A DNA stretch of 36,504 nucleotides, taken from positions 1 to 36,504 of the forward strand of contig RDXI01000081.1 of assembly GCA_004292795.1 (NCBI GenBank). Reading direction: 5' to 3'. This document shows, one piece after another, positions 1 through 10,284 of this stretch (position 1 is the first letter of the stretch; the number at the start of each line of letters is the position of its first letter). The position numbers were made by a program, and so were the translations under genes. This DNA comes from Bacteroidota bacterium (GTDB lineage Bacteria; Bacteroidota; Bacteroidia; Cytophagales; Microscillaceae). The notes beneath the pieces are model-generated. The model saw nothing but the letters and a program-made list of their open reading frames with translations. It ran no database searches and had not been told where the DNA came from.

Positions 1-1081
1 AGCTATTCATAAACCGCTTTTTGTCCGTGTAGCGAGTCGCTTCTACGCTTTCCCAAATATTGCCCACGCCTATTGTGAGGGCATTTTTTTCGTTCCAAAC
101 ATAGTCCGCTTGTATTTCGGGGCGTGTAAAGTTTTGCCTGAAGTAAGTTTCATCGAACAGGTTTTGGTCTGCATTGTAGGCAAGGAAGGCACTTGTAAGA
201 TATTGGCTTTTGTAAAATCTTGCCTGCACTTTGAAACGACTCGAAAAAATATAATCTGCTGTAGGATTGAGGTTATAGTCTTGCACCTTGCCTGCCCCCG
301 ATACGTTTTGCAGGTTTTGGGCAGTACCTACTTCAAACCTTGCCTGCTGATTTTCTACAAAATACCTTCCCGAAATTTTGAGTTTTAGGCGCGTATTTGG
401 ATTGTAATGGATTTTGCTTTGGAGCGTATAATTGTGATAAGGCTCTACGGTTTGCCCATACGTGTCAGGCGTAAAATCGTAACCGCTTGTACTATAACGA
501 TTTAGAAAAATATTAGCTCCCCATTTTTCTTTTTTGTAGGCAAGGTTCGCGCCCACGTCAAGCGTTTGATTGCTCCCATATCGGCTCGACAAAGTAGCTT
601 TAGTTTGTTGTGGGTTTTCGGTAATGATGTTGATAACGCCCGCCAATGCCTCTGAACCATACAAACTCGAACTCGCGCCTTTGATGATTTCTATTTGTTT
701 GATATTGCCCACCGCAAGGCGCGACAACTCCAAAGTGCCTGCCGTTCTGCCCACCAATGGCTCGCCATCTATCAAAATGAGCGTATAATCAGGGCTAAAC
801 CCTTGTAATTGGATTCCTTGCCCATGCTCATTTACAATAGCAAGCCCCGTTTGCTCTTGCAATACTTCGTTCAGGCGCAAACTCCCCATAGCCTTTATTT
901 GGGCTTTGTCAATCACCAACACAGGCAGAGGCACAGCCGAAAGAGCCTTTTCGGTGCGAGTAGCCGTAACCACGACTTCGGACAAAGCTTGCAAGCTGTC
1001 CGTTTGGGCAAACACACAACACGCTGAAAATGAAGCAAATAAACAAGTAAGTACGGCACGCATAGCGGAAAGCGGTTTCAT
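1..1081 (-). CDS. TonB-dependent outer-membrane receptor, N-terminal part (runs off the left edge)
   Basis: Reading the minus strand from an ATG at 1081 gives about 360 open residues with no stop before the window edge. Residues 1-26 look like a signal peptide ending FAQ. A plug domain follows directly: LSEVVVTATR near residue 33, a conserved IDGEPLVGR stretch, and SLYGSEALAGVINIIT near residue 140, which is the classic plug signature. After it come alternating amphipathic segments typical of barrel strands. There is no CarboxypepD_reg extension, so it resembles BtuB/FepA-type receptors rather than SusC. It should import a scarce ligand (iron chelate, haem or cobalamin) using TonB energy; the substrate cannot be told. 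ATG 1063 is an alternative start. The gene is divergent from the DUF6607-like gene at 1267 and shares its symmetric promoter region. Confidence 0.93.
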   Translation of the reverse strand, partial: MKPLSAMRAVLTCLFASFSACCVFAQTDSLQALSEVVVTATRTEKALSAVPLPVLVIDKAQIKAMGSLRLNEVLQEQTGLAIVNEHGQGIQLQGFSPDYTLILIDGEPLVGRTAGTLELSRLAVGNIKQIEIIKGASSSLYGSEALAGVINIITENPQQTKATLSSRYGSNQTLDVGANLAYKKEKWGANIFLNRYSTSGYDFTPDTYGQTVEPYHNYTLQSKIHYNPNTRLKLKISGRYFVENQQARFEVGTAQNLQNVSGAGKVQDYNLNPTADYIFSSRFKVQARFYKSQYLTSAFLAYNADQNLFDETYFRQNFTRPEIQADYVWNEKNALTIGVGNIWESVEATRYTDKKRFMNS

Positions 1082-1110: not shown

Positions 1111-1127
1111 TTTAGAACAAATCTAAA
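1111..1127. promoter_or_regulatory. Operator-like dyad 1 (TTTAGA-N5-TCTAAA)
   Basis: A 17-bp perfect dyad with 6-bp arms. It lies between the predicted -7 box of the receptor gene (1138-1145) and its start codon, where a bound repressor would block transcription. It has the same consensus as the dyads at 1153 and 1185. The form resembles metal-dependent DtxR/MntR-family operators, but the regulator is not identified. Confidence 0.55.
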
Positions 1128-1137
1128 TAAGACGTTG

Positions 1138-1145
1138 CAAAATTA
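1138..1145 (-). promoter_or_regulatory. Bacteroidota promoter for the TonB receptor gene
   Basis: On the minus strand the box TAATTTTG, followed by C, matches the Bacteroidota -7 consensus TAnnTTTG. A TTTG -33 box lies at 1166-1169 with a 20-bp spacer, inside operator dyad 2. The leader would be about 50 nt. Confidence 0.6.
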
Positions 1146-1152
1146 TGTACTA

Positions 1153-1169
1153 TTTAGAATTATTCCAAA
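1153..1169. promoter_or_regulatory. Operator-like dyad 2 (TTTAGA-N5-TCCAAA)
   Basis: A 17-bp dyad with one mismatch between arms. It covers the predicted -33 box of the receptor promoter. It is the exact mirror image, in arm positions, of dyad 3 around position 1177. Confidence 0.55.
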
Positions 1170-1190
1170 TAATTTCTGAAATTATTTGGA
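1164..1190. repeat. 12-bp perfect inverted repeat at the promoter symmetry centre
   Basis: Arms TCCAAATAATTT (1164-1175) and AAATTATTTGGA (1179-1190) surround CTG. The arms join the inner halves of dyads 2 and 3 and contain both predicted -33 boxes. Confidence 0.8.
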
Positions 1191-1201
1191 TTTAGTCTAA
1201 A
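1185..1201. promoter_or_regulatory. Operator-like dyad 3 (TTTGGA-N5-TCTAAA)
   Basis: A 17-bp dyad with one arm mismatch, covering the predicted -33 box of the rightward promoter. Centres of the three dyads are at 1119, 1161 and 1193, i.e. 42 and 32 bp apart, close to four and three helical turns, so all would face the same side of the DNA. Confidence 0.55.
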
Positions 1202-1208
1202 TAAAAAT

Positions 1209-1216
1209 TATTTTTG
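1209..1216 (+). promoter_or_regulatory. Bacteroidota promoter for the DUF6607-like gene
   Basis: TATTTTTG followed by C matches TAnnTTTG; the -33 TTTG is at 1185-1188 with a 20-bp spacer. Its distance from the symmetry centre at 1177 is exactly that of the leftward -7 box. Confidence 0.6.
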
Positions 1217-1266: not shown

Positions 1267-2163
1267 ATGAAAAATTTACTGCTCACTGCGTTTTTGGCTC
1301 TTGGCACTGCCTTCGGAGCGACTGCCCAAGACAAGCGCGACAACGAAGCCATCAAAAGTATGTGCGGTTGCCACGAAGTTACGTTCAATTTTGGCGAAAC
1401 CTTCTCGCCTGACAAGGACTACAAATTTCACGACAATCACCAATCTAAAGGGCTTGAATGGGTGGAATTGGTGGAGGACAGCAAGGGCAAAATCGTATTG
1501 CAACACCTGCTTATCGTTACAGACAGCACAGGCAAGCAAGAGCTTGTGAAGCATTGGAGGCAAGATTGGTTGTTTGAAAACACCGACTTCTATCTTTTTG
1601 ACAAAGAAAACAAGTGGAAATTTGCTCGCCTGCCCAAAGAAAAAGTGAAAGGGCAATGGACTCAAAAAGTGTATCAGGTGGACGATAGCCCGCGCTATGA
1701 AAGCTCGGCTACGTGGGTGCATACAGACGGCAAACACTATTGGGAAGCCTTTGCAGACACGCCTCTGCCCCGCAGGGAGTTCACACACCGAAGCGACTAC
1801 AACGTGCTAAAGCGCAGAAACCGCCAAGAAATCACAGCTTGGGGCTGGGTGCATGAACAAGACAATGAAAAAATAGTACGCGCTGATAATCAAGCAGATA
1901 GGCTCATTGCTAAAGAAAAAGGCGAGGATACCTACAAGAAAGTAGAAGCCTCTAAGTGTGCGTTTGCGCAAAAATGGTGGAAAGAGAATCAAGGTTTTTG
2001 GGCGGTAGCAAGGGCAGAATGGGCAAAGATATATGCTCAAAACAAAGACCTTGCTTTGGAGAAAACGGTAGATAAAAAACCGCTCTTTATGCACCTTTTC
2101 CCACTCAAGCCCGAACAAACTGCCGAAATAAAACCTATCCTACAAAAGTTTGTGAAGCCATAA
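1267..2163 (+). CDS. Secreted DUF6607-like protein
   Basis: A 298-residue protein with a signal peptide (residues 1-20, cleavage after ATA-Q). The mature N-terminus carries MCGCHEVTFNFGETF (32-46), with Cys33 and Cys35. The body is rich in Trp, Lys and Asp, with the pattern QDW, HWRQDW, YYW and AWGWVHEQDNEKIVR, which I associate with the DUF6607 family of unknown function. The ATG at 1267 is well placed behind the promoter at 1209. The gene is divergent from a TonB receptor and appears to be under the same regulator, so a role in handling the imported ligand outside the inner membrane is likely. That is inference from context; no catalytic motif is visible. Confidence 0.78.
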   Translation: MKNLLLTAFLALGTAFGATAQDKRDNEAIKSMCGCHEVTFNFGETFSPDKDYKFHDNHQSKGLEWVELVEDSKGKIVLQHLLIVTDSTGKQELVKHWRQDWLFENTDFYLFDKENKWKFARLPKEKVKGQWTQKVYQVDDSPRYESSATWVHTDGKHYWEAFADTPLPRREFTHRSDYNVLKRRNRQEITAWGWVHEQDNEKIVRADNQADRLIAKEKGEDTYKKVEASKCAFAQKWWKENQGFWAVARAEWAKIYAQNKDLALEKTVDKKPLFMHLFPLKPEQTAEIKPILQKFVKP

Positions 2164-10246: not shown

Positions 10247-10284
10247 TACCTCTTTCAAAATATTTTGAAAGAGGTATTTTTTTT
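10247..10284 (+). terminator. rny terminator
   Basis: Arms TACCTCTTTCAAAA (10247-10260) and its complement (10263-10276), then eight T. Confidence 0.92.

Follow-up and report, generated by a model that had tools for sequence, protein, structure and literature searches.

A RhuH-type haemophore gene and a TonB-dependent receptor operon probably share a Fur-repressed bidirectional promoter in a bacterium of the phylum Bacteroidota

The window, the whole stretch of 36,504 nucleotides that was analysed, very probably carries a Fur-repressed bidirectional promoter located between a RhuH-type haemophore gene and a TonB receptor-DoxX-HmuY operon of haem/iron uptake. The proposal is carried by the anatomy of the region, by the protein families and by the conservation of the boxes, of their spacing and of their overlap with the promoters, from which we infer the binding of Fur, the repression and haem as the cargo. 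An unnamed operator receives in this way its likely identity, that of a Bacteroidota Fur box, and a gene of the DUF6607 family is identified as a RhuH homologue. The haem system and its Fur regulator were already known. The new elements are the position of the locus, apparently outside the Flavobacteriales, the presence of three boxes and the conserved merging of the -33 box with the operator, a geometry for which no description was found in the open-access papers searched.

Flanking genes and organization of the intergenic region

The following features were located (coordinates of the window; boxes are candidate Fur boxes and promoter elements are predicted):

2-1081, minus strand: TonB-dependent receptor, N-terminal 360 aa (plug), truncated by the contig end
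1111-1127, no strand: box 1, TTTAGAACAAATCTAAA, exact match, 42 bp from box 2
1138-1145, minus strand: -7 box TAATTTTG of the leftward promoter (given as CAAAATTA at 1138-1145), 20-bp spacer
1153-1169, no strand: box 2, TTTAGAATTATTCCAAA, right arm including the leftward -33 box
1164-1190, no strand: perfect palindrome of 13+1+13 bp with its centre at 1177, which connects box 2 to box 3 through their inner arms
1166-1169, minus strand: -33 box TTTG of the leftward (receptor) promoter, within box 2
1185-1188, plus strand: -33 box TTTG of the rightward (rhuH) promoter, within box 3
1185-1201, no strand: box 3, TTTGGATTTAGTCTAAA, left arm including the rightward -33 box
1209-1216, plus strand: -7 box TATTTTTG of the rightward promoter, 20-bp spacer
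1267-2163, plus strand: RhuH-type haemophore homologue (DUF6607), 298 aa, Pfam PF20311 with E 4e-104

By its sequence, the rightward protein is a homologue of the haemophore RhuH. Its residues 15-296 match the RhuH structure (PDB 8xjc) with 56% identity (E 1e-107), the haem ligand His96 of RhuH is aligned with His96 of the protein, and Asp154 and Glu160 are kept too. A literature search for DUF6607 found no paper. On the other strand, the receptor is interrupted by the end of the contig. The source genome is a fragmented assembly that is 82% complete. The remainder of the receptor was found at the start of another contig (C117; L109:3-1010), where it is followed by a DoxX-like gene and a HmuY-family gene. 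The plug (PF07715), the beta-barrel (PF00593) and the HmuY partner (PF14064) of this operon were all detected. The best scores of the receptor fragment were obtained with vitamin B12 receptor models, below the cut-off, and not with haem models. A strict search of the receptor for the haem-receptor motifs FRAP/NPDL recovered none, and a similar stretch FKAP...NPDE is visible. Haem is the presumed cargo of the receptor operon.

The receptor start (1081, leftward) and the start of the rightward gene (1267) are separated by a gap of 185 bp containing 77% A+T. A pattern scan with TTTRGA-N5-TCYAAA recovered exact matches at 1111-1127, 1153-1169 and 1185-1201 and no others in the window; their centres (1119, 1161 and 1193) are 42 and 32 bp apart. 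A first-pass annotation made from the DNA letters had placed the three 17-bp dyads and their centres correctly to the base. When two mismatches were tolerated, the scan of the window gave 12 matches for 10 expected, which is the chance level; this result was not used as evidence, and the weight therefore rests on the cluster of three exact dyads.

A sequence scan showed that promoters of the Bacteroidota type, TTTG-N20-TAnnTTTG, face outward on both strands. In their positions, boxes 2 and 3, the two -33 boxes and the two -7 boxes are exact mirror images about 1177, as had been annotated. The coordinates also agree with the earlier placing of each -33 box inside an operator and of box 1 in the interval from the leftward -7 box to the start codon of the receptor gene. 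No other 24-bp-arm centre in the window scores as well as the one at 1177, where 21 of the 24 arm positions match, and 5000 shuffles of the intergenic region never reached this match. The perfect 13-bp arms at 1164-1190 could also evoke an RNA hairpin or a terminator rather than operator DNA. This explanation appears extremely improbable: the arms would leave a loop of one base and are situated upstream of both predicted start sites, the palindrome is accounted for by two inward-facing operator half-sites, and the outer arms and the spacings are kept in other loci.

Two minor observations concern the same DNA. Among the perfect inverted repeats in the window, the longest (15-bp arms, even centre) is located at 10261 and is possibly a terminator. 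A stretch resembling TTTGC-nn-CATCAA follows the -7 box on both sides of the divergent promoter (1209-1227 and 1131-1145) and is also found in the loci L046, L048, L051 and L064; it is perhaps a conserved initially transcribed sequence.

Comparison with characterized Fur boxes and haem uptake loci

The Fur box of Riemerella anatipestifer, a bacterium of birds, is ATTTAGAATTATTCTAAAT, and Fur binds fragments of its target promoters in EMSA (PMC5609570); the Fur box of rhuB in the same species is ATTTAGAATTATCCTAAAT (PMC10986502). With its flanks, box 2 reads ATTTAGAATTATTCCAAAT and is one base apart from ATTTAGAATTATTCTAAAT. Comparison by eye with the R. anatipestifer box gave 18 of 19 positions for box 2, 16/19 for box 3 and 15/19 for box 1. 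The inward arms of the window differ from the published box by a G at position 5, which is part of the -33 box. On the basis of the box and the locus published for Riemerella, the three dyads are considered as candidate Fur boxes, with Fur as the likely binder.

In R. anatipestifer CH-1, rhuH and rhuR-rhuA share a bidirectional promoter of 122 bp containing a Fur box, and rhuH is upregulated in a fur mutant, in a box mutant and under iron limitation (PMC11967795). The locus of the window has in common with this system a haemophore homologue and a TonB receptor that are divergent, a Fur-type box between them, and a gene for a haem-binding partner within the receptor operon. Since the genes, the box and the divergent layout match, the locus has the plan of the Riemerella rhuH/rhuR-rhuA locus. 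Contrary to the 122-bp Riemerella promoter, for which one Fur box is reported, the region of the window extends over 185 bp and displays three boxes, two of which (2 and 3) contain the -33 boxes. In the receptor operon, the HmuY-family gene occupies the position of rhuA and is a candidate counterpart of it. The hosts also differ, as Riemerella belongs to the order Flavobacteriales whereas the host of the window is Cytophagales-like, judging from its relatives. The main carriers of RhuH have been named as Weeksellaceae and Flavobacteriaceae (PMC11967795). A RhuH homologue and a Fur-type box found apparently outside the Flavobacteriales suggest that the RhuH system and its iron control are wider in the phylum than that description. 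Concerning the HmuR-HmuY system for haem uptake of Porphyromonas gingivalis, the common trait is the association of a TonB receptor and a HmuY-family lipoprotein in one operon; unlike this system, the window adds on the other strand a RhuH-type haemophore homologue, predicted from the sequence.

Conservation of the boxes and proposed mechanism

The comparison set brought together 65 distinct regions lying upstream of RhuH-family genes and drawn from several orders; close relatives are over-represented in it, so that the counts do not represent independent events. A box with at most one mismatch was detected in 32 of the 65 regions (mean of 0.2 and maximum of 2 in shuffles, which preserve base composition only), and at least two boxes with at most two mismatches were present in 30 regions (0.2 in shuffles). 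Several RhuH loci among those compared display no recognizable box. In a sample of 395 genomes of the phylum, the best match to the Riemerella RhuH has 58% identity.

The spacings between boxes form two clusters, at 32-33 bp (10 cases) and at 41-44 bp (16 cases), and the layout of three boxes seen in the window (42+32) is also found in L056 (41+32) and L057 (43+33). The helical phasing initially proposed could be read from just two spacings in the window; it gains from the recurrence of these distances in related loci. In the ten loci with a spacing of 32-33 bp (window included), the inward half-sites read TTTG in 19 of 20 cases and the outward ones TTTA in 17 of 20, and the conservation reaches 0.91-0.99 in the half-sites against 0.56-0.59 outside. 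In these sequences, the R of TTTRGA is positional, with a G where the half-site doubles as a -33 box. The first-pass annotation had missed that the choice between A and G depends on the position. This rule (G where the half-site is also promoter) offers a simple means of predicting where Bacteroidota carry Fur-repressed promoters and which way these point. In the loci L024 and L029, where rhuH and the receptor gene are co-directional, there are two boxes 38-42 bp apart, the first over the -33 region and the second immediately beyond the -7 region; this pair corresponds to boxes 2 and 1 of the leftward promoter of the window.

In the proposed mechanism, when iron is sufficient, Fe2+-Fur dimers would occupy boxes 2 and 3 and mask the back-to-back -33 boxes, which are predicted to form part of the inward half-sites themselves. 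Box 1, situated immediately downstream of the -7 box of the leftward promoter, would receive a third dimer, giving the receptor promoter a second lock. When iron is scarce, Fur would leave the DNA and both genes would be transcribed. As the two -33 boxes are only 15 bp apart, two polymerases could hardly bind simultaneously. More tentatively, and with a little less than even confidence, we propose that the haemophore loci of Bacteroidota share a conserved composite element whose bases serve both as Fur half-sites and as -33 boxes, at fixed spacings of 32-33 and 41-44 bp, and through which adjacent Fur dimers would close a pair of mutually exclusive promoters together. This joint shutting is possibly cooperative.

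Candidate regulators and copies of the box in the source genome

At the scale of the genome, TTTRGA-N5-TCYAAA gave 17 exact matches (5 for a reversed control), and the extended pattern ATTTRGA-N5-TCYAAAT with at most one mismatch gave 24 (3 for the reversed control). The exact matches situated inside coding regions (L001, L002, L004, L010, L011, L013 and L014) were regarded as probable chance occurrences and left out of consideration. One box is located 116 bp upstream of feoA in a feoA-x-feoB cluster (C174), and other intergenic boxes precede genes encoding an imelysin lipoprotein (C142), a DUF4856 protein (C244) and an outer-membrane efflux protein (C402). Among the genes preceded by a box, at least feoAB and the imelysin gene are iron genes; further copies before metal-uptake genes, whose search had been advised, do exist in this genome. 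The search for a regulator, also advised, recovered one clear Fur orthologue (L016; PF01475, E 5e-28; best PDB matches with Fur proteins), a second Fur-family protein with its best score to Zur (L017) and a DtxR/MntR-like regulator with a C-terminal FeoA domain (L074:14-859). A point against Fur is that a MerR-type regulator of iron homeostasis has been reported from a different member of the phylum (PMC9478572).

The first-pass annotation had likened the dyads to targets of the DtxR/MntR family. A 6-5-6 dyad is not unlike MntR sites, and a binding of L074 to the boxes, with a response to manganese or iron, would find some argument in the presence of this gene in the source genome and of DtxR-family matches in 27 of 28 box-bearing relatives (one of them, in G022, marginal). 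No box was found near the DtxR gene of the source genome, and a near-identical box is bound experimentally by Fur in Riemerella. Moreover, the genome G056 (93% complete) contains a perfect box (L068) and no DtxR-family match, and G022 (99% complete) contains paired boxes (L051) with a match limited to 26 residues. A Fur orthologue is present in all 28 genomes checked. As Fur is found in 28/28 genomes and the DtxR family is not found in all, and given the published genetics, Fur is favoured and the DtxR/MntR assignment appears very improbable; the likeness first drawn is unsupported, the dyads matching the published Fur box and a box occurring in G056 without DtxR hit. A slightly lower probability is attributed to another member of the Fur superfamily (the Zur-like L017 or a PerR-type protein) as main binder, with zinc or peroxide as signal. 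The second Fur-family protein of the source genome is a candidate for this role, but such a paralogue was found in just 6 of 28 genomes (by a search with Fur as query, which would miss distant paralogues), the Fur characterized in Riemerella uses this same box, and the targets are iron genes (feoAB, imelysin, HmuY and the haemophore homologue), which argues against a zinc or peroxide signal. The earlier idea of one metal-responsive repressor acting on both genes is in agreement with this analysis, with Fur as the probable repressor.

A separate observation concerns a perfect copy of the published Fur box ATTTAGAATTATTCTAAAT at L110:3669-3687 (G000, contig C423), 86 bp upstream of an operon. 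SMEK relatives in the 395 other genomes are distant ones only. The genes of this operon encode a SMEK-domain protein, a middle component of the ABC-3C type (MC6) and a DUF2326/PDC-M68B-like protein; it is a candidate anti-phage operon and may be under iron control.
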